This document shows positions 3,136 through 61,144 of a stretch of 64,000 nucleotides of DNA, piece after piece; the stretch's first letter is position 1, and every line of letters begins with the position of its first letter. The stretch comes from Asterionellopsis glacialis (taxonomy: Eukaryota > Bacillariophyta > Plagiogrammaphyceae > Rhaphoneidales > Asterionellopsidaceae): assembly GCA_014885115.2 (NCBI GenBank), contig WKLE02003470.1:1-64000 (forward strand). Direction: 5' to 3'. Position numbers and translations under genes: made by a program. Below the pieces are notes generated by a model, which worked only from the letters and a program-made list of their open reading frames with translations, did not search any database and was not told the origin of the DNA.

Positions 3136-4284
3136 TCAGTCACTATAATTTTGCTCAATGTCCCATACAGCAATTTGTGTGGAAGTTTCCGAAACTACAA
3201 ATGATCTGATTGTTGAGGTTGGAGCTTTGGAACAATTTCCTCCAGTAGGATTATCAACAGTCCATTCACCCCAAATTTCATCGTCTGGAGGCACGTTCTT
3301 TGGATATCGAATAGTATGAACTTGATGCCAAAAGGGTGGATACGATGTTTCATTTACCATACCATAATTCTCCCAACAACTTCCAATTGTGGTAGCCTCA
3401 TATTGTTTCCAAGAAGAAGATTCTTGTTTTGTTGTTCCTAGTTCGTCGTCGTCGTTGTCATCAAGAAGTCCCATGAAAGGTTTGTCCACCAACAAAGTCG
3501 ACACCCGTTTGGTATCACCCAATACTTTCATTTCTAATTTCCAAACCATGCCATCATTCGAAAGTGTGATTTTAGTCTCCAATAGTTCACCAGGATAAAC
3601 TGAATGAAGCGATCCTACTGCCGCCTTTGGTATCCATGGTTTCTCACTAGTTGCCTCGTAGTGCTCTGCATCTTTATTGGTATCATGATATGTAAAAGTA
3701 TTAGGAGCAGCATCAACAACATGGATTTCTTCACGCTTATAAATGCCCATGAAATACTGTGCACCGAAATGCCATGAATCTAATTGTACCCATATTGGGT
3801 CGTACGTTGGTGGGCCGGTCGATTTAGCAAGAGCATTACCTAGCATCAATTGTGGTACAAATTGATTAAACTTTGCACCTTTAGGTTGGTATGCACCATC
3901 AAAATAAATATTAAAATAATCATAATATGTCATTGATTCTGTGTCAAAATACTCGGGAAGAGGAGGAACTTCAAATACTGATTGAAATGTTGTACCAGGA
4001 TACACGGGATACATTTTGTGTTGTAGTGTCGTCGTTGTTTTTGTTCTTCGCCCCCTTGTGTGGCCATGGCCAGTATCAAGAAGGTTAGTGGCACTGCTAG
4101 GTCCAACACACAATCGACCAAATGTGCAATCCTTAATTGTATTCAACGCTTCTTTACCGCCACCAATGGGAGGTTCAGGACCACGATAACCATAGGAAGT
4201 TTCACAGTTCGCCTTTGAATGTCGAACGAACACCACGGACGACAAAATTAAAAATAACGATTGACTCATCAGCAATCGGAACAA
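3136..4284 (-). CDS. Secreted protein of unknown function
   Basis: This is a 382-residue single-exon protein. It opens with a signal peptide (MFRLLMSQSLFLILSSVVFV, with a second possible start at Met6) and should enter the secretory pathway. The mature part contains scattered Cys and two NxS/T-type sites (NETS, NCSK), but no transmembrane helix. Aromatic-rich blocks such as IWVQLDSWHFGAQYFMGIY and YPPFWHQVHTIRYP suggest a beta-rich globular fold. I do not recognise the family. A concanavalin-like or eqolisin-type fold was considered but no catalytic signature could be assigned. It sits head-to-head, about 560 bp apart, with a small plus-strand gene. Confidence 0.75.
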   Translation of the reverse strand: MFRLLMSQSLFLILSSVVFVRHSKANCETSYGYRGPEPPIGGGKEALNTIKDCTFGRLCVGPSSATNLLDTGHGHTRGRRTKTTTTLQHKMYPVYPGTTFQSVFEVPPLPEYFDTESMTYYDYFNIYFDGAYQPKGAKFNQFVPQLMLGNALAKSTGPPTYDPIWVQLDSWHFGAQYFMGIYKREEIHVVDAAPNTFTYHDTNKDAEHYEATSEKPWIPKAAVGSLHSVYPGELLETKITLSNDGMVWKLEMKVLGDTKRVSTLLVDKPFMGLLDDNDDDELGTTKQESSSWKQYEATTIGSCWENYGMVNETSYPPFWHQVHTIRYPKNVPPDDEIWGEWTVDNPTGGNCSKAPTSTIRSFVVSETSTQIAVWDIEQNYSD

Positions 4285-15866: not shown

Positions 15867-18800
15867 CTATGCATAAATTGCTTCAGCAAATTCACGTTTC
15901 ACATAAATTTGAGTACCTGAATGGTCTAATACCTCACATACTTGTTCCTTCCATTTGGAATGTTTATCTTTGTTTGCTAGTTCAGCTAAGGCTTGATATG
16001 CGTCACCAGTTAATTTTCTAACTTTCTCTGACATTACCTTTTCCAAAGGAGAATCAAGAGACAATGATTTCTCTACGTCATTTAGTGTTGACAAACCATC
16101 ACCTTCGATAAAGCCACTTATAAATGTATCAACTACATCTACTTGTGATTTGGTATCATCAACACCCATCACAGATAACATGGATGGCAGAGGTAATCCA
16201 CAAACAAGCTTACCAGCTATAATGGCCATGCGAAGTAGGCATACACCCATTTTCAATGCTGGTGCTACACGCTTGAACCATTCCCCAGTAACTTGCAATC
16301 TCAAGGGTGGCTTTATCACTGTATAGGAATGTTGACACACAAAGTATACTTCAACCCATTTGTTCGTTATAGTGGCTGGCCTCCATGATCGCCAATCATT
16401 CTGACGCATTTCTTTGCCGTCTACACCTCCCACTAGTGGTATCACCCATACCAAACGTGGACATGGTGATTTTATACCGGCACTCAACCGTGCAAGTGCC
16501 TTGGTATGTCTACCAAGTTGTACATCTATTCTCGATATACTCTCATTGATCTGTTGGAGTAATTTCAACATTTGTGGTTCCCATATAGAAGTATTGTTTG
16601 ATGGATCAACATTGCCCTTTTGTATTTTGACTAATAATTGATATGTCGACACTGACACCTTCCCATACAAATCACTATTTGTTAAATTCTTGCTTTTGCA
16701 ACCATCAATAGCACATTGTATAGCATAATTTGGATTATTCTTGATATGTTTCACAACATGTTGTTCTAAACATGTCCTATCGATATAATGTCCACAGGAA
16801 CAAAACAATCCTCCCTGGGCTACACTTGCACACAAACAGCACGTATAGTCTGCCGTCTTTGTTGGTGACATATTCATGTCGTCAGACTTTAGAGGAGTTT
16901 CATTGGAATACTCATTCAATGTAGTAATACCTTCCCATGAATCAGGATCACGACCCTCCAATTGAGCCAACATCTTGGCAAGATCATCAATCAATTGGGA
17001 CGTTGTTGGTCTTTGTTCTGGCCAACTTTGGATGCACCGAAGAGCTAATTCTGATATCTGATCAATAATATCATCTAAATCATGCTTTAGGATCGGGTCA
17101 ATATCCAAATCTTTGAGAGATGATGGCATTTTTTCATACTTCTCTGATAAATCACCAAGATCACGATCACCAGATTGTCCTTCCTGTAAGCATCCCGTAA
17201 GGAGCTCTAGCATGGTAATTCCAAAAGAATATACGTCACATGCTGGAATATATCGTTTGGTCCCTTTACTGTACCATGGACAGATATACCCAGGTGTACC
17301 AAAAACTAACTGTCCAGATGATTTAAGTAATGTTCTTCCCACAGATGGATTGCTTTTAGTAACTACTGGGTCTTCCACAAATTTAGCCAGACCACAATCA
17401 ATAAGTTTGGCTGTATAATTAGAATCAAGGCATATATTGCTTGCCTTAACGTCACGATGATAAAATTGATATCCTGATGCACCACCCTTGTGTAAGAAAT
17501 TCAAGGATCGAGCAACTTCATACATAATTTGAATACGTCGATGACCTGATAGAAGAGATCTACCAGCATCAGATCTTAAAAATGAATCAAGTGCACCCCC
17601 CTTTAGATATTCGAAGACAAGGTAGTTCTTACCATGTATTTGACTATCTAAGCAGTACCCATGAAGAAGTACAATATTTGGATGGTGACATCGTTTGAGA
17701 GTCTACAAATTATTATAGAATATGAAAATTTCAAACAAAGAAGCACCAATTTAGATTGGTCTACATGCGTAGTTCACGCTTCCAGTATGATAAAAGTGCA
17801 ATAAAATAACTTACCGCAATCTCTCTTCGGAAACTATCTTGAACATGTTCCCTATCAACTTGTTCTCTAAGATCCAATTGTGGACATTTGACTACAAATT
17901 CATACTGGTACTCGCTATCGTATGCACGATAAACAGTGCCGTACCCACCAACTCCTAGTTTGCAATCAGAAGAAAAATTGTTAGTACAATGCATCAAATA
18001 CTCTTCAGGAAAAATCTGTGGTTCCACATCTGGTTTGTGTAGAATTTTACTCAAGCATAGACGACCCTTCATAATGTTCGTAGACATATTGTCATCTGAA
18101 GTGGTTGTATTTACTGGTGGTCTTTGGATTTCAATGTCTGGTTCGTGCTTTGTGTTTGGTAGGAAGTTTTCCACTTTTAGAGTATCCTTGAATGGATTGT
18201 CTATTTCTGTCTTTCGACTTATTGGTGTTGTTGTAGACGTGGCTATGGTTTCTGGTGTTGCTTGGCTTTCAATGTCTGTTTCAATATTTGTGTAAGGTAA
18301 GAAGTGTTCCACTTTTGAAACTTCTTCAAATGGATTGTCCATTTCTGTCTCTTGACTTTTTGGTGTTGATGTCGACACGGATGTAGTAGTACTTTGCAAT
18401 CCTAAGGGGCTTACTTTACATGGTAGATGCCATGGAATTTCTGTTGGAAGAGATGGCGTCAGTTGTTTTGGAGGAGATTTCGCGGGTTGATAATCATCTT
18501 TTGTTAGCTGCCATAATCTTGCAATGAAACTGTCTCCCATACCAATCGCAATGTTACCACTATCTATCGAAAGAGCAACTGACGTTATTCCTCCATTTTC
18601 ATGTACAGTATCATAAATTTTCTGTTGTGTGGAACGGTTTTGGATAGATTTAATCCATTTCTTTCCACTCTTCGATTTTTTCCCTATTACTCTTGTCGCA
18701 TTTGAAAATAGAAACTGTGCATAGGTTCGTCCTTCGAATGCACTGGTAGGGAAGGTAGGGAAAATATCTTCACTACTACTATCGCTTTCGAACAGATTCG

Positions 18801-19650
18801 TACTAGTCGAGATCAAAGTTACACCTTTGTCTGTGCCTTTCCAGGTCCGTATCGCACAAGGGCATCCTATAGCCCAGAGTTTGACAGTTTGATCTTTTGA
18901 ACCAGTGAAAAGGAAACGATTATCACACGACATTGCTACCGATACGACAGGACTGGTGTGTCCCTTGAAACTTTGTCTTTTGGTTCCATCAGACACCGAC
19001 CAAAGTTTGGCAGTGCAATCATTAGATGCTGTAGCAAGGAATTGATCATTTGGTGAAAAAGCTACCGAATTGATACTCCCCTTGTGTCCACGGAATCTTC
19101 TAATTTCAAGACCGGTATTGAAGTTCCAAAGTCTAACTGAAAAACCACTAGATCCTGTTACAACGAAGCATGTGTCTGTATATGACAGGGCTACCGATAC
19201 AACTGGATTATCGTGGCCTTTAAATGTTCGAATGTCCCTTCCAGTTTGGGATTCCCAAAGTTTAGCAGTCTTATCATCAGATCCAGTAACAACATAAACA
19301 GCATCACTCGAAATTGCTACAGAGCGTATTGGACCTGAATGCCCTGAAAACTTTTGTACAACACTACTTGTTTCTAAACCCCAAAGTTTGGCCGTAGAAT
19401 CATACGAACCACTCACCATGTACGGTCGATTTAAAGCAAATGCAACGGATGTAACTATAAAATTGTGGTCTGCTAGTGTACAAACCTCACTTCCAGATTG
19501 TACATCCCACAGCTTGACAGTGCAATCTTCGGATCCTGTAGCAAGAAGACTTCCATCTGGAGAGAAAGCTACAGACGTAACTGATTGTTTGTGTCCTTCA
19601 AGGGACTTGGATAATACTGTTGTTTCTGATATTGATAAAGACGTAGTCAT
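15867..19650 (-). CDS. WD40 - protein kinase - zinc-finger multidomain protein
   Basis: Exons 19650-17815 and 17702-15867 join in phase 0 (donor GTAAGT, acceptor TTGTAG, 112-bp intron) to give 1223 residues. Residues 1-265 hold six WD40 repeats (SVAFSPDGSLLATGSEDC, TVKLWDV), and a further repeat lies near 345-385. A Ser/Thr/Pro linker leads to a kinase domain (about 559-862) of the TKL/IRAK-like type: glycine loop GVGGYGTVY, Lys588, HRDVKASN (694-701), and IDCG (713-716) in place of the usual DFG, then GTPGYICP. A Cys/His cluster at about 900-975 (CCLC, CSCGH, CLEQH) looks RING-like. The last 200 residues resemble C-terminal segments of stramenopile signalling proteins but are unassigned. It is probably a signalling scaffold kinase. 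Confidence 0.88.
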
Positions 19651-40330: not shown

Positions 40331-43300
40331 TCAACCATCCAACTCAGCGAGGAAATTTGCAAGTTTGGGAAGGTACATGGTGATGTAGGACTCAGTATAA
40401 AAGCCATGCTCTTTGTTATGACCTGTTTGAGTAGTTCAAATGATTGGCATGTTAAACAAAATGATATGATGCTAGTGGAAACGAGCCACTTATTGCACAC
40501 TTCTTCACGAATATTGACTTACCTGCAGCAAGATGATGTGCAAGTTCATGCGCCATCGTAGTGAACCAGTACGAGTAACACTCACTGCTATTTTGTCGGT
40601 TTTTGGTGTAATGAAGGGAGTAGAAGAAACGAACGTTGAAGTGAAGGCTTCTATTGGAGTTGAATGCTGGAAGAATTACACGACAAGACAGATTAGTTAG
40701 ATATGAAAGCCAGTGAGGTTAGGGAACGAACCAGACACACGTACCAATTGTGGAACCAGCTGGATCATGGAAGATGCAAACGGACTTCATCTGTAGGGAG
40801 TAAATATTACACAAGGCTTCAAGCACATCGGCAAAAGTTTCAACTGCATGGAAATTTTCATGCAGGAAAGCTTCCGATTGCGGGTGTTGCCGAGAAAAGA
40901 AAACACGGACTCCTTTCCTAGTTTTTCCCGTCCGGTAAGGACCACTGAAGGGCTTGATATGCTGAGAAGGTATGACCTCACAACCCTGGTCAGGACGATC
41001 GTGACCATGTGGTATATGGGTTAGATGTGTCTCTGCGCTGTTGATACCACGAGGATTCACCTTATTCGATGTTCCAACAGTTTGCTCCAAGAGACTTTCC
41101 ATCCTTGAGTTGTCTGCTGCATCATCTTCTGGTCGTTTGGGTTGTCCATCATTCTGTCCATTCATCGAAGGATTCCCATGAACGGCTTCCGTACGAGGTG
41201 GCAACTGATGATCACCATTTGCACTCGCATCCATTCCACCAACGGGGGTATCAGCTTGAGGTTTTTTGTCCGGACTACTATTCCCCTTTCGTCCGGTCAA
41301 AGCGCGGCTCAGTCTCTTGCCGAACTTTGATTTTTTCTCTAAATCCCCTTCCTTATCGCTCTTCTTGTTGGCTTTTTGTGCCGGTGGGGGGATCTTCGTT
41401 GGTGAATCCTTTTCAATCGCTTTGCCGATCTCATTTCCTTCTGATGTATTCTTCTTTGGGTAATTTCCTTTAGCTAACTCATCAGCAACTCTTTGCAACT
41501 TTTCAAGATCGGCATCGGAGCCTAGGAGAGCCTGGATGTATTCTGGAGAACAATCAGGGAACATTTGTTGAAGAATGCATTCGAATCCATCATCATCCTC
41601 ATCTGTCGGCTTTTGCTCCTTTGTCGATTTAGTAGCTTGAGTTTGAGTTTCAGCTCGAGGAACACTTGTGGGTGCCGGCGGTTGGGGCTCGGGTGGTTCC
41701 TCCGTAAGTATGACAGGTTCCACCGGTCGTAAAATCCTATCCACGGGAAATCCTCGAGCTCGGAGCTGATCAAGTGGTGCTTCGAGCAACGACCCAATAA
41801 AGAAGGCATCCTCCAATTGACAACGTTGCAAAATCAATGCGCCAATGGCATATCCAACATCAAACCAATCGAAATCTTTTGTGACAAAAAGAACATTGCG
41901 CTGCCCCTTGGCAGCCTTGGCGCAGCAGGTAATCCGCTGATTACGAACGGATGATCCCAAAGAGTATACTGCCTTGAGATCATTGGCTTGTGCAATGACA
42001 AGATTCTTTTCTTCGAGTATTGTACTCGCGTTAGAGAGGAGGGGTCTCGACGTGATGCTAGGTGATACCAGTAAAGGTCGACGTTCATTCAAACGTTCCG
42101 CAAGTTGAAGTGCTAATGGAGTTCCCTCCTTGAATCCACCAAGTACTTCAAAATTCTTCTTGACCCCTTTGGAAATATACTTGGATCCTAACCGGCAATA
42201 GAAATCTTCAAGGTCAGACTCATGTGGTGCCTGTAACACAGGAAACATTCGTCCAAAGAAGGAATTGTCAACGATGTATATATCTACAGCGGCAGCTAAT
42301 TGTGTCTTTCGAATGCTACCACCCTTGTTACTTTCACCGTCATCATCTTCTTCGACAACCTTGTAAGCAAGAAGGAACGGAGCATTTGAAATAGCAGGTG
42401 GTACACTCTTGAAAGGTGGGTTCGCAGCTATCCGTCGAAGCAATGCACGATACTTTTCTTCGCTACCCAGAGCCCGTAGGACCTTTTCAGGGTAGAGGAC
42501 TGTTAATTGGAATAAATCGTGAGTCGTAGCTTCTGATTTGACTCCTGCAGCAGCAAGGAATGGACTAAAGTCAATAACATGAAATAAAATTTCTGTTATG
42601 GAATCATTGTTGTCCTTGTCAGTTTTACTTTTAAAGTATACATCTGTAGGTCTGTACCATTCAATCAGTTCCTGACCATTACTATTCGTAGTGATAGTAC
42701 CTTTACTTTGACAGGGGATGAAATTTTGAGATTGCAATGACTTCATTGTCCTTTGATCAAAGTCTGTACGGCTCGATAAATACTTGAAAATTTCATCAAA
42801 TAGTGCGGATACATTTGCACAGACACGTTGTTTATCCACTGCTTTTGAGTTTTGGATCGTCATTTTGGACTTGGTCACCAAGTCTAACAATTGTTGGACC
42901 AAGGAGGCCGTGTCTGGTTCTTCTGGACAACGGAATCTACTAGAGTAGAGTTTACCACTTTTCTTATCAAGATCAGGATCTAAACAGGGGAAACCCATTA
43001 CCATACAGTGTGGATTTGAAAAGCATGCACTTGGTCCACGCAATTCACGAATGGTACTCTTTGGAACCAGTGGATCAGTACGGACAGACGGTAAAAACTT
43101 GATATTCTGTGGCGACTTGTTGGTGGAGGAACGAAGCATGTTGGGTGGTGCATAATCGCGTTCATACACACCCTTGGGACCTAAATGTTTGCATACATAA
43201 TCTAAACCCTGTCTACGCAGTTCATGATCCAAGGCATCACTCGCCATATACTTTAATATAGCCGATAATGGCGGGTGTTGTTGACATCCTAAATTTTGAA

Positions 43301-46300
43301 GGAATTTACCATTCGGTGAATGTGCTAGGTTTTCATCTTCGGATGGCCATTGGAGTAAGGTTACAAAGGGGAACAAGCGTAATTCAGAACTAGGCAAATA
43401 CAATTCTGATGGTGCAAAGGTACGTGATACATCATTCTCCGCAGGCAGGTATTGTGTTCCCCGTAGTTTAGCTAAATCTTGTTTGGTAAGGACAGCTGTT
43501 CGTAGATATTCAATCAATGGTTTGGGATCACTGGACCATGACAGCGTATCTAAATTTTGAAATAAAAAGTCAATGGCTACACTTTTTCGTACTCCCAGGG
43601 CAACTAAGAATTCATCGGATACACCATTATCCTTGAGAGCAAGTGATACCTTATTGAACGATGACGATGATACACCATCAAATGCTTTTAATTCAGCAGA
43701 ATACAAATACAAATCGGCAGGATAATCAGCAGCGTATTGGGTTGGTTCTTGTGAATCAAAGGGTATACACCGTTTGGTCGCCAATAGTGTTTGTAGGTAG
43801 CTTGCAAACATGACACGTTCGGTCAGAGGTCGCTTTTGATATTCCTTACAAAGAGTAGTCAATACCAAGTTACGTTGAAGTTCATCTTCCGGCTGTCCTG
43901 CAGTCATACATTTATGAGCACTCACATAGTCGGCCCATACCTCCATGGTAAGGGAGGTGAAGAAATATTGAAAGGACTCATCATAAAAGGTACGCATTGA
44001 GGAGGATGTTCCACCCCCAATACTTTGTTGCATATGTGGTGGTAAAACTGAGTCAGGCATGGGTAGACTAGTAGATGATGATGATGATGGAAATTTCGAA
44101 TCATCAACATAGTACATGATATCTCGAAGATGAACAACAGATGACCCATCATCACCGTTGATGGGAAGGTTAGTAGTAGAATTGGTTTGTTGGAAACTAG
44201 ATAATGTTTCGTTCGAGGGAAAGAAACGCATACCATCTCGTATCGAGGGGGCATATCGTATAATGGATGAATCGATGCGATAATATTTACACCACCATTT
44301 GAAGAATCGTATCACCTTGTCTTCTTCCAATATCGTATTTGGTGATGCCACATGGGTTGTAACATCCTCAATCGAGAGTGGACGACATCGTGCAATGACC
44401 TCATGGTATTCCTTTGCATTTTCCATGACAATCGATCGTACAATATCAGTTTGATCGACAAAGATTTCCATACCACGATGTGGTAATTTTGCATCAGATC
44501 CACGACGTAATCCACCCTTGGTCAAGACGGGTGGGGATAATGAGAGGGCACGTGAAAATCCTTGTGCCAAGACAGTCCCTACCAAGGTATCCGGCGTCGA
44601 TTGTTGTGGACAAAAGGATCTCATCAAGACTATAGCGACGCGTTCTTCTTTTGACAATGGTAATGGATCACGTGGATTGAATAATTCAGCACTCCCATCA
44701 TCCAAGGTAATAGCTTCTGCTACCGTTTGTAAGGAGGATACAATTTTCTTTTTAACACCCTTGGCCATAAATCTTGCAAATCCCATAAGTGTCGAAGAAG
44801 ACGAGGATATTGTGGATGCATCGTCATCGTCGTTATCATCTCCATTGTTGTCTTCTTCGGATGTTTCTGAATTTTGACGTGATGCAGTAGTAACTGTTGT
44901 TGTTGTGTTCTTTTCTTGTTGTTCTTTTAATAATAATTCTTGTTCCAAGGCTTGTCGTTGTGGAAATCCTTGTTCCCATGCAAGTCCCAATTGTGTCATG
45001 GAATGTTCTAGGGTTAATCTCATTAAAATACCAGCAATTTCTAATAATTCAATATTATACGTACGCAAGGTTGGATCTTGAAAATCAATAGCCTCACGCT
45101 CGACTGTAGGTAATAAGGGTGCAGCTAAATGAGCAGCTAATCCTGTCGTTTGAGAAGTACGAAATCCAATAAAGATTCGTCCTGTCCCCATTTGGGGACT
45201 AAAGGACGATGTTATTTGTTTGGCAGCATTGTACTTTTTCTTTTTTCGAGTGAGAATATTTTTCTTTTTGCTACTAGAATGTCGTTTGATCAGAGTTGTA
45301 CTATTACTACCTTGTTCTGCATCGACATCCTCGTCGTCGTCATCGTCGTCTTGCTGTGCATTTAAAAATAGTTGTATATTGACTGTCGGTGGTGGTTGTT
45401 TTTTAGTTACACGTTCCATACGTTTGGCCATGTCGTGTGGAATTTTCGTTTTGGCAATACCCGAGACGTATCTTGCTTGTATGGTAGATACATCTTGATC
45501 TAATTGAACATGAAATTGATGGATGGATTCCATAATGGCACTCGTATTACTACGTGCACCACCACCACTTCGTAGGCCTGTGGATGTTTGTGATTGAAAG
45601 GTAAATAATCCCTTCGAGGAGGATGTGACTGCCCCATCATTGGACCAAAAGCTTGATTTTTGTGGTGGTTGTATCACTGTGGGTGGTTTTGTCACACTCT
45701 TGGTAATGGACAATCGTTCTTGGTCATTAACGGTGACACGTATACTTGTTAAGCATTGAGTAAAGGTAAGACTGGCACATAAAAATTTTCCAAATTCTGT
45801 CAAGTCAGGTACAGGATAGGGATCACGACTGGGTAAGACAAAGGTTGTCCATTGAGGATCGGCATTTTTGTTGGGTGCAACTCGGGTATATAAAGAATCC
45901 CCTTTCCAAATAAATGCCAAGGCTTCTGTCCCACTAATGACCAAGGGTTCTTCACAGATACTAAACATAGTATAAGCTCCTACACCAAAGGCACCAACTT
46001 TGGACACATCGGGATTGCCCTCGGCAATTTTCTTTAAGCGTGCCCAATCTTGTGTCCGAAAGGGCATACCATTGTTCCGATACACTACTTGTGTCACAAC
46101 TTCATTATGTGATCCTGCCTTTGTCGAAGAATCATTGTTCGTACTGCTGGTACTACTGGTAGTGGTACTTGTGGTAATATGTATTTCTGCTTGGGTGGCT
46201 TCGGCATCATTGGAATTTTGAATTAATTCACGATAAACTGCACCTGCCGAAGCATACCGTGCTAAAATTTTATCAATCAAGGCACGTTGATTCACTTCAA

Positions 46301-46364
46301 CGCGTGAATCACTACCGTTCGAATCGACTGTTGCACGTACGGAATCATACATTGTATTCGTCAT
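40331..46364 (-). CDS. Giant HSP90-type ATPase protein with CUE and terminal HExxH region (DUF3684/sacsin-like)
   Basis: Exons 46364-40745, 40666-40523 and 40422-40331 join in phase 1 twice to give 1951 residues. Residues 25-190 are a GHKL/HSP90-type ATP site: RELIQNSNDAEATQAEI (N-box), NNGMPF, then GAFGVGAYTMFSICEEPL, as in sacsin and the DUF3684 group. Residues about 1583-1630 are a CUE-like ubiquitin-binding motif (ILQQMFPDCSPEYIQALL). The last 160 residues, completed only by the two small exons, contain MAHELAHHLAAGHNKEHGFY. Here His1913, Glu1914 and His1917 form a zinc-protease HExxH with a further His1923. Between these lie large unassigned and low-complexity regions. It is probably a chaperone or quality-control factor, with peptidase activity possible but unproven. 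Confidence 0.88.
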
Positions 46365-56192: not shown

Positions 56193-56210
56193 CCTCTAGA
56201 GAGACTACTC
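56193..56210. repeat. 18-bp element shared with 60328-60345
   Basis: CCTCTAGAGAGACTACTC occurs identically at 60328-60345. This copy lies 14-31 bp before the LipB start codon at 56179, so in its 5' UTR or core promoter. Confidence 0.5.
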
Positions 56211-56263
56211 AAACCGCGTTGGTGCCACAACCAGTGACTGATAGAGTCTCTGCCGTCTATCAA

Positions 56264-56952: not shown

Positions 56953-59241
56953 ATGGCATCACCCAGGGAAAATTTCGCAAACGACGCTCGTCGACGTTCT
57001 ATTTTGACAGTGTACCAAGCTTCTCCTTTGTCCTATCAAGATTATTCAGGCAAAGAAAAAAAGTTGGATGGGATCGATCTTGAATCGGAAGAATATGCCT
57101 TACGAGAAGAACTTGCAAAATTTGATATTGATGTTGTTTGTAGATTTGCTACATCGAAACTTTTAGGTGATTTTCTTTCACAGGGGCACCAATATTTACA
57201 TTTTTCATGTCATGGTCATCCGAGATTTTTATTCATAGAAACAGAATACGGTGGATCACAACTGTTGGGTGTCGATGATAATTTAAAGGCCTGGATTAAG
57301 GCGGGTGGGAATAATTTAAATTTTGTATTTGTTTCGGCGTGTCATTCAAGAAAAGCAGGTGAAACATTCGTGGGTGCTGGCGTCGAACATGTAGTTTGTT
57401 GTGAAAAGAATGAACACTTACTTCACAATACCGCTGCCATTGTATTTTCTAGAGGATTTTATAGTAAATTGGCTAATGGCCTGACAATACAAAAGTCATT
57501 CGATCTTGCTGTTCATGATGTGATCAATTCTCATGAATTGCGTGATGCAGGGTTAGATCCCAATAAAGAAGCTGATAAATTTGCGCTCCTTCCCAAGGGA
57601 ACCAACCATGACATTATATTACCATTTGATCGAATCCCTCGCAATCAATCAATGTTAAATTTAACACGATCCTTGTCTAGATCGGAACTTGTACCAGTCC
57701 CACCTCAAATATTCATTGACCGACGAATGGACATATATCGTATTCTCAAGGCTATGTTTGCGGGAAAGTCCAAGGCACGTTTGGTACGTCTTACAGGTCC
57801 TACTGGGATTGGAAAAGTCAGCACAGCCAAATTTCTGGCCCAATACATGGATAAGAGACACATGTGGGGTGACCTTTTTTGGTTGCCCATTACGAATGGG
57901 CATGGGAAAGATGGTGCTGATATCATATCCAATTGGGACAATTTGTTTCAATTATTCCAAAATGATCAATGCCCAGCAAGTGATATGAAAACTTTGGATG
58001 CTTACAAGGATAATGTACATTCGATTCTTCATAAGCTTCATAATAGAAGAGCAACCCTCTTTATCAATACTACCAAACTTTCCATCAAGGGTGTTACGAA
58101 ATGTGGTATGTTTTTAGATGATTTGTTTGAATCCAAAAATCAAGTCAAGGTGATTGTCATTCATCGAGAAGGGGCACAAGTACTTTCTGAACATGATACT
58201 GGGTTTATTGTGACAGAAAAGGAATTTAGTCTTCCACCCTTGGACTTTTCATCCACGGTAGCCCTATTTGGTAAGAACTGTGATCATGTTACAAATTACC
58301 CAGCATTCTACAAGATGGTTTTGACGAATCGTTGTGAACTGACTTTCCGTTATATGGGCAGTGGTATTCCAGCAAATACCATCCTGGCAGCAAAGAACAT
58401 TGAGCTTTCCAAGTATAAACTTCTCCTTGAACGCAAGGGTATATTAATCGAAAATGACTTTCCAGAGGGTATGGATCCCAAAGCTATGTTTCGTCTCCTC
58501 GGCCAACGAGGTGCAAGCAGTCGACGCACTATTGGTGGGTATATGGAAGACTTTGAGCAGGAGGAGGAAGAAGAAAAGGCACCCCTTCGATCACAAGGTC
58601 AGGTCAAGAAACGGTTTGCACCATTGTTGGTCAAGGAGGGTCGAGTGTATCGTAAAAGTGTAACCACCTTTCTGCGGCATGCTGTCAAGGGCGAAAAAAT
58701 TGATGCTGTGATTTACGGAAAACATGAAAGCAAATACGTAGTCAAGGATGACAGCTGTTGGGTGGCCTGTGGTCGTGCCGCTGGAGAAGTTTATGTATTG
58801 ACAGAGAAGAATTTCCATGACTCCTACGATGTGAACAGTGGTAAAACCATCAAGAATAGTTCGACTCCACAGGCGGCTCGTCTTCGTCAAGAGGGGTTCT
58901 TGGAGTACAAGTCGATTCGTAAAGTTTGGGCTCGTAAAGTGGATGCACAAGATATGAATTTCTTCATGTACGGGAACAACAAGGATGATGAAGTATCATC
59001 CGGTGGTGAAGCCTACTTTAGAGCTCCATGGGATGAATCTATGCGTGTTGAACAAGGGGACTACCTCGTCATGCAGTATCCAGATAGAAGTGCTAGTGAG
59101 GGTATATATCGAATTGAGAGTTCAGTCTTTGGGTTTTCTTATGAAGAGGACACCGACGATCGAAAACAATGGGCTAAATATGCTTTGGCTGCCGGTGGTG
59201 TAGCTCTGTCCGCCCTGCTTGCTGTGAAAGTTCGTCGTTGA
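56953..59241 (+). CDS. CHAT-protease / degenerate STAND-NTPase / tail-anchored protein
   Basis: A single-exon, 762-residue protein. Residues 16-195 are a CHAT (caspase/separase-like) peptidase: DLESEEYALREEL, LHFSCHGHP with candidate catalytic His87, and FVSACHSRKAGETFVGAGVE with candidate Cys130. Residues about 253-450 form an NB-ARC/STAND-like module with P-loop GPTGIGKVS (Lys288) in which the usual Ser/Thr after Lys is Val. The Walker-B position reads LFINTT without Asp. After an acidic linker (EEEEEE, about 538), two similar small beta segments end in NFHDSYD and VFGFSYE. The last 23 residues are a hydrophobic helix with a basic KVRR end, a tail anchor for mitochondrial outer, peroxisomal or ER membrane. 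Cell-death or immune-like signalling is inferred. Confidence 0.85.
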   Translation: MASPRENFANDARRRSILTVYQASPLSYQDYSGKEKKLDGIDLESEEYALREELAKFDIDVVCRFATSKLLGDFLSQGHQYLHFSCHGHPRFLFIETEYGGSQLLGVDDNLKAWIKAGGNNLNFVFVSACHSRKAGETFVGAGVEHVVCCEKNEHLLHNTAAIVFSRGFYSKLANGLTIQKSFDLAVHDVINSHELRDAGLDPNKEADKFALLPKGTNHDIILPFDRIPRNQSMLNLTRSLSRSELVPVPPQIFIDRRMDIYRILKAMFAGKSKARLVRLTGPTGIGKVSTAKFLAQYMDKRHMWGDLFWLPITNGHGKDGADIISNWDNLFQLFQNDQCPASDMKTLDAYKDNVHSILHKLHNRRATLFINTTKLSIKGVTKCGMFLDDLFESKNQVKVIVIHREGAQVLSEHDTGFIVTEKEFSLPPLDFSSTVALFGKNCDHVTNYPAFYKMVLTNRCELTFRYMGSGIPANTILAAKNIELSKYKLLLERKGILIENDFPEGMDPKAMFRLLGQRGASSRRTIGGYMEDFEQEEEEEKAPLRSQGQVKKRFAPLLVKEGRVYRKSVTTFLRHAVKGEKIDAVIYGKHESKYVVKDDSCWVACGRAAGEVYVLTEKNFHDSYDVNSGKTIKNSSTPQAARLRQEGFLEYKSIRKVWARKVDAQDMNFFMYGNNKDDEVSSGGEAYFRAPWDESMRVEQGDYLVMQYPDRSASEGIYRIESSVFGFSYEEDTDDRKQWAKYALAAGGVALSALLAVKVRR

Positions 59242-60064: not shown

Positions 60065-61144
60065 GGTTGAATATATATATTTTTTAAATTGAAAAAAGTT
60101 ACAGTAACAATGTGTTGTGTCTGGAAATATGACGAAACTGAAGTCTTGTGGGATGTGCAGTTGTTGTTGTTATCACGGATCGTTTGTCTCTATATTTTTG
60201 ATACCCGCACAGAGATATACAAACAAAATTCAGTGCGTAGTTTGCGTTGTCCGCTGTCAATCCTGTGTATGTAAAACGTACATAAGGATATCTACGTGGA
60301 ACTTTTAGTGGCCACTGTGGAATACAACCTCTAGAGAGACTACTCCAGCTGCAGTACTTTTTCTACGTATGACTCTACTACAAGACGCTGTCCCACAGAG
60401 AATGAATCAAAATCAAATCTGACAAACGTATGCATCCATGTTGTAGCTTCAAGTTGGGGCAACCCCATATTTCTCAAATATCTGCTTTGTATTACTTTCC
60501 CGTACGGTGGAATGGGAACATTAGGGGTTATCCTTTCCAATATGCAAAAACTGGTGTTCATGGAGGAAGGTTCAAGTTCCGGGTTTCCTTGACGATTGCG
60601 GGGTCGTGTCCGGCACCGTTGGGCGACCGAGACATGCTAGCAACGGTCTGTGTATGCTGGCTCGTCTCGGACTCGCCGGCTCTATCATTCACACACCGTC
60701 CGTCCGTCCGCGTGTACGTCTCTGTGCTGCACCGTCCGTCTGTCTTTTCGGGAGGTTAGTTTCTCTAATTTTTCGATTTTTTTTGTTCACCTCGCGGCAC
60801 TGCTGCAGGATCTCTCCGTTCTAGAGAGAGATGCCCACATTTGCTACAACACGAAAGGTAGGTGTCTTATTGTCTTTGATTACGCCATCATTCTCAAAAG
60901 TCTCTTTCATGGAGCAACTGTTGGGTTTGCACAACTCCTACATTACAGTAACAATCCATATAGGAAATAACCTTTATTAGCTTTGCATAGGTTTTGGAAA
61001 AGGAAAGAGCACACGTGGTACACGCACACTTAAGAAGACTAGAGGACAAGACGTTGCAACACACCTGAAACCATCACCACCATATTTGGTGTTTGATTTA
61101 AATTTGTAAAAGGATAGTACAAATCACACACGACAAACATAAAT
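60065..61144. other. Divergent intergenic region
   Basis: About 1.08 kb. It has the second copy of the 18-bp element (60328-60345), a GC-richer patch at about 60595-60740 with CCGTCCGTCCGTCCG, and a TTCTAGAGAGAGA stretch (60820). An open frame on the minus strand (60340-60561) has no recognisable features. No gene is called. Confidence 0.45.
60328..60345. repeat. 18-bp element shared with 56193-56210
   Basis: Second exact copy of CCTCTAGAGAGACTACTC, about 265 bp upstream of the STI1-type gene start. Confidence 0.5.

Follow-up and report, generated by a model that had tools for sequence, protein, structure and literature searches.

A putatively membrane-tethered member of a modular CHAT-STAND protein family in the diatom Asterionellopsis glacialis

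A CHAT-STAND gene and its host

In a stretch of 64,000 nucleotides from the diatom Asterionellopsis glacialis (positions 1 to 64,000 of contig WKLE02003470.1, assembly GCA_014885115.2; hereafter the window), we analyzed the gene at positions 56953-59241 of the forward strand, which encodes a protein of 762 amino acids, labeled P0001. Comparisons of its sequence and structure models suggest, with somewhat better than even probability, that this gene belongs to a modular family of CHAT-STAND proteins in diatoms and represents a branch of it that is tethered to a membrane, the membrane location being the putative element. P0001 combines a predicted CHAT protease domain, a shortened STAND-like NTPase unit, a beta module, and a hydrophobic C-terminal helix. 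The features of the gene are as follows.

56953..59241, + strand: entire gene, 762 codons and a stop codon, without a visible intron (reading-frame analysis, near full-length relatives)
56992..57627, + strand: CHAT/caspase-fold protease domain, residues 14-225
57211..57213, + strand: candidate catalytic His87 codon, in LHFSCHGHP (alignment column, model strand)
57340..57342, + strand: candidate catalytic Cys130 codon, in VSACHS (alignment column, model strand)
57694..58437, + strand: STAND-like NTPase unit, nucleotide-binding domain plus helical lid, residues 248-495
57796..57822, + strand: P-loop GPTGIGKVS, residues 282-290, preceded by T281 (TGPTGIGKVS) (core profile, alignment)
58639..58833, + strand: beta unit 1, residues about 563-627 (model strands; conserved in the 13-member beta clade)
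58891..59154, + strand: beta unit 2 with EQGDYLV...F..SY, residues about 647-734 (models, Foldseek of the whole C-terminal part)
59170..59238, + strand: hydrophobic helix 740-758 plus basic end KVRR, candidate tail anchor (hydropathy, model helix)

The open reading frame (ORF) has no internal stop and needs no intron, and an in-frame TAA lies two codons 5' of the ATG. Among 7993 scored candidates, 10 proteins matched P0001 at E ≤ 0.001, with identities of 34-49%; these homologues were drawn from the sources lgn, jgi, or ena. Because P0002, P0003, and P0004 align near full length (94-98% of P0001 at 46-49% identity, best E = 1.1e-219), the ORF is not a chance frame, and it is real and complete, with the coordinates and length reported in an earlier reading of the sequence alone (hereafter the sequence-only reading). 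That reading had also assigned the gene to a diatom. This was borne out by a silicic-acid transporter gene (PF03842, best E = 7.3e-82) in the assembly searched (40.3 Mb, 1503 contigs), although such genes occur outside diatoms too, and by the named relatives of the protein. A profile search found 50 relatives among 7997 scored candidates; the three that were named are all diatoms (Grammatophora oceanica, Nitzschia inconspicua, and a Bacillariaceae metagenome-assembled genome, MAG), and none of them falls within the beta clade described below.

The CHAT protease domain

Homology, structure prediction, and conservation support the CHAT core that had been proposed from the motifs HFSCHGH (His87) and SACHS (Cys130). 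In the 62-row family alignment, the His87 column holds His in 58 of the 60 rows with a residue there, and the Cys130 column holds Cys in 60 of 62. The predicted structure of P0001 has the caspase-type fold of a CHAT peptidase, with strand 81-86 leading into His87 and strand 124-128 into Cys130, and these residues align with a His and a Cys of PDB 8tl0. The Pfam CHAT profile (PF12770) matched P0001 with E = 0.003 but stayed, at 17.5 bits, below the 24-bit cut-off. All 11 aligned family members matched at E ≤ 0.1 (best E = 1.6e-13), and P0002 (33.2 bits) and P0012 (32.2 bits) exceeded the cut-off, with P0004 (23.8 bits) just below it. On sequence and model evidence, the N-terminal part of P0001 is predicted to be a CHAT cysteine-protease domain with an intact His-Cys pair.

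It is very improbable that P0001 is a catalytically dead pseudo-protease scaffold. Loss of the catalytic pair does happen in this family, because the two CHAT units of a WD40-containing paralogue in the same genome (C296) both lack the His and the Cys. However, His87 and Cys130 are kept in P0001 and in all non-C296 rows with residues at these positions.

A shortened STAND-like unit

The nucleotide-binding domain that follows contains the Walker A motif GPTGIGK at residues 282-288. Column 288 of the family alignment is Lys or Arg in 55 of the 62 rows and a gap in 2, and G282, G285, G287, and K288 are all kept in 35 rows. P0001 itself has Val directly after the P-loop Lys, and its Walker B acid is absent, with Asn372 in that position; the same column holds Asp in 41 of the 62 rows, Asn in 8, and Glu in 6. 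A helical lid is present, with the GxP motif GSGIP at 469-473 and modeled helices at 432-493. After the lid, no winged-helix domain was recognized in P0001, where the model shows a helix at 509-517 and disorder at 519-543. Seven other rows (C853, P0025, P0026, P0028, P0038, P0041, and P0043) end 1-4 residues past the core match.

P0001 itself had no match to NB-ARC, NACHT, or nSTAND at E ≤ 10. With a threshold of E ≤ 0.1, NB-ARC matched 5 of the 11 aligned members of the family (best E = 1.2e-7) and AAA_16 matched 10, and the relatives P0037 and P0038 exceeded the nSTAND1 and NACHT cut-offs. Homology, structure prediction, and conservation support the NB-ARC-like module of the sequence-only reading as a STAND-like NTPase but not as a complete switch, given the unrecognized winged helix and an Asn where the Walker B motif would have its acid. 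The switch of P0001 is predicted to be a shortened STAND-like unit directly after CHAT.

The beta module

P0001 has no C-terminal repeat sensor of the NLR type; it carries the beta module and the hydrophobic helix there. The strands of the two small beta segments noted earlier are present, with the correction that they form a conserved module specific to this branch of the family. The 218-residue C-terminal part had no Pfam match at E ≤ 10, and its model resembled no solved structure at E ≤ 0.001. When the model was compared with viral predicted structures using Foldseek, the best match was A0A7D0KZ20 (E = 4.3e-12, 27% identity, 191 columns), the Orpheovirus protein A0A2I2L347 matched at 2.2e-5, and five viral matches had E ≤ 0.001. 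Phage proteins also matched, one of them a named PGDYG protein at 7.1e-2. This viral resemblance is not selective, because the predicted-structure library held viral models only. The PGDYG family (PF14083) had no match in the genome and none in the controls either, and hhalign of the beta module against three bacterial PGDYG-family proteins gave a weak result (probability 15%, score 26.6, compared with 23.9 for the best of 100 shuffles). The beta part appears to be a conserved module with a predicted fold like that of viral proteins, one of which is named PGDYG protein, and the support from sequence is weak.

The integrated-decoy model is established for plant NLRs, and the beta module might by analogy be a captured viral or bacterial domain serving as bait, so that binding or another action by a pathogen protein would trigger the receptor. 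The match to A0A7D0KZ20, with no comparable solved structure, favors this idea, which we nevertheless consider improbable: the viral link is non-selective, the bacterial link is weak, no viral contig encoding a close relative was found, and a common fold does not reveal the direction of transfer.

The C-terminal helix

The most hydrophobic 19-residue segment of P0001 is the one at residue 740, four residues from the end, and its hydropathy reaches 1.50, where the usual limit for a membrane helix is 1.6. The model places a helix at 736-761 with a predicted local distance difference test score of 46-68. Near the C-terminal end of five relatives (P0002, P0003, P0004, P0012, and P0015), the hydropathy is 2.05-2.94. 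Judged by the same 19-residue measure, the helix is absent from the beta-clade members P0006, P0007, P0013, and P0014, and the predicted proteins P0005, P0008, and P0009 stop short of its position. A membrane-type helix is found in 6 of the 10 beta-branch members with a readable end, that of P0001 being borderline. Outside the beta clade, a hydropathy of 1.5 is reached within the last 80 residues in P0023, P0036, and P0039.

A tree was built from 58 of the 62 rows, after removal of four that are short or degenerate (P0022, P0052, C296a, and C296b). All 13 beta-module proteins group together in it (Shimodaira-Hasegawa-like approximate likelihood ratio test support 100), and the four helix-free members form a single nested group (100). 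A one-time loss of the helix within the beta clade would fit this nested group, but the helix label changes three times on the tree when the cut-short proteins count as lacking it. The hydrophobic helix with a basic end that had been described is present, borderline in hydropathy in P0001 and clear in five relatives. We regard it as a probable membrane tail and a putative tail anchor.

A modular family in the genome and its relatives

Six further CHAT-STAND-type genes were found in the genome (C930, C179, C1350, C853, C296, and C1358). In C930 and C179, the core is followed by a C-terminal macro domain, an ADP-ribose-type module (E = 6.7e-7 and 2.6e-9). C1350 combines the core with long stretches that look coiled-coil-like by eye, and C1358 has a degenerate core ahead of a long stretch without domain assignment. 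In C853, the core follows LRRs (weak matches, E = 0.0009 and 0.0019); with LRRs ahead of the protease, the order is the reverse of that in a usual NLR. Relatives carry further parts, namely kinase, ankyrin, PDZ, LRR, UVR, and IQ. Among the best candidates scored, the beta-tail part occurs elsewhere in the genome only as a broken relic on contig C381, which gave no match to the CHAT part. The corresponding loci are listed below.

L019 2978-5554 and L020 2368-4842, both - strand: two macro-domain paralogues, His-Cys pair kept in both
L022 3919-8592, - strand: LRR-CHAT-STAND-type protein, ORF ending just past the helical lid
L024 2937-7271, + strand: WD40 propeller between two degenerate CHAT units (C296), pseudo-protease paralogue
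L018 about 3186-3661 (contig C381), - strand: remnant of the beta module and tail with a broken frame

Separately, the nearest relative, P0002, has an extra N-terminal part (residues 1-250) that looks TIR-like by eye (SRIWCVCEL), a resemblance to which Pfam and PDB sequence searches lent no support.

Comparison with known systems

A single scan of prokaryotic genomes gave 11 pattern matches, of which 2 encode relatives, both in Chloroflexota MAGs (L029 and L030). Both align to positions 5-483 of the 487-position family core profile, and their best-segment identities to P0001 are 28% and 34%. In each, CHAT precedes the nucleotide-binding unit, as in P0001, and the SACHSR motif is shared. L029, with the order EAD7-CHAT-NACHT/NB-ARC-TPR, differs from P0001 in its N-terminal EAD7, its C-terminal TPRs, and a region that resembles a winged helix by eye; inspection of the L029 reading frame, made without a profile test, revealed neither a beta module nor a membrane helix.

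According to two reports, fungal NLRs carrying a CHAT protease control gasdermins (PMC12881547, PMC10197012). Like P0001, these proteins join a CHAT protease and a STAND NTPase in one eukaryotic chain; they have TPR, ankyrin, or WD40 repeats and often adjoin gasdermin genes, whereas P0001 has a beta module, a hydrophobic tail, and a shortened STAND unit. No gasdermin (PF04598) was found in the genome in a search whose control was silent, and the Pfam scans did not extend to the neighboring genes. SAVED-CHAT (PDB 8tl0), whose activation runs through SAVED, and TPR-CHAT of Craspase share the CHAT fold and the His-Cys pair with P0001 but lack a STAND unit. CED-4, Apaf-1, and plant NLRs have winged-helix domains and act through separate proteases or other outputs, whereas in P0001 the protease is built in and a winged helix was not recognized. 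A CHAT protease in CRISPR defence and the activation of TPR-CHAT through gRAMP-bound RNA are described in PMC9729208, which gives the distance between the catalytic His and Cys of TPR-CHAT as about 7 Å in the inactive state and about 3 Å in the active one.

Proposed mechanism

P0001 would sit on an organelle or plasma membrane and, apart from a few residues at its C-terminal end, would lie in the cytosol. Its sensor, either the beta module itself or a bound partner, would detect a ligand; the shortened STAND unit would respond by a shape change or self-assembly; and the CHAT effector, its active site freed, would cut a substrate near the membrane. On balance, we favor this picture of a tail-anchored family member acting as a membrane-tethered proteolytic receptor, with a presumed ligand, assembly, substrate, membrane, and immune or death output. 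The family most likely serves to detect infection or stress inside the cell, its members being receptors that work through proteolysis and possibly via cell death, because the relatives bear LRR, macro, coiled-coil, WD40, kinase/ankyrin, PDZ, and IQ parts around the same core.

A membrane-tethered regulatory protease of ordinary physiology (protein turnover or organelle signaling, for example), with no immune or death role and with the STAND unit as an assembly-only relic, seems unlikely, though less so than the bait. Asn372 at the acidic position of Walker B, the Val that follows the Lys of the P-loop, and the confinement of the beta-tail part to P0001 and one broken relic among the best candidates scored all agree with such a role, as does the CHAT-related separase, which is described as a housekeeping protease (PMC9729208). 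In contrast, the core also comes with LRR, ankyrin/kinase, macro, and WD40 parts, which look receptor-like rather than housekeeping, and the relatives found are strongly diverged (34-49% identity in ten proteins).

A broader form of the receptor reading, which we put forward tentatively and at less than even odds, is a diatom-own NLR-like system in which CHAT is built in beside a shortened STAND unit and sensors (LRR, ankyrin/kinase, macro, WD40, PDZ, IQ, PGDYG-like) are swapped freely on either side, with P0001 as the membrane branch bearing a virus- or bacterium-type beta sensor. If true, this sensor and the membrane tether would make P0001 a proteolytic trip-wire on an algal organelle.

Implications for diatoms

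The viruses and bacteria of diatoms influence how carbon flows through the ocean, yet little is known of the receptors behind immunity or regulated death in diatoms. The conserved modular CHAT-STAND family provides concrete candidates for such receptors. Because P0001 is one of several modular CHAT-STAND proteins in its genome, our results suggest a diatom version of the receptor system that is known in bacteria and fungi. This would extend the wiring of a CHAT protease to an NTPase switch from those groups to photosynthetic stramenopiles, and the shortened switch and membrane tail would be novel design features. The CHAT-bearing NLR architecture is already known from fungi, and diatoms are apparently a new lineage for this kind of protein: searches of the open-access literature, which leaves out most subscription journals and preprints, turned up no report of a diatom CHAT or NLR receptor, the broader ones judged by title and abstract. 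ROCO candidate immune receptors are described for brown algae (PMC11378527), and the genome paper of Seminavis robusta reports tandem LRR expansions, with no occurrence of "CHAT", "NACHT", or "NB-ARC" in its main text.

Other features of the window

A 25-nucleotide direct repeat (88% identical) flanks the gene at window positions 56193-56217 and 60328-60352, 4.1 kb apart. At 15867-19650 (- strand), adjacent ORFs, judged by eye, resemble a protein with WD40 repeats and one of protein-kinase/zinc-finger type, and the two may be a single intron-containing gene. At 40719-46364 (- strand), the start of a 1881-residue ORF resembles by eye an HSP90/sacsin-type ATPase.
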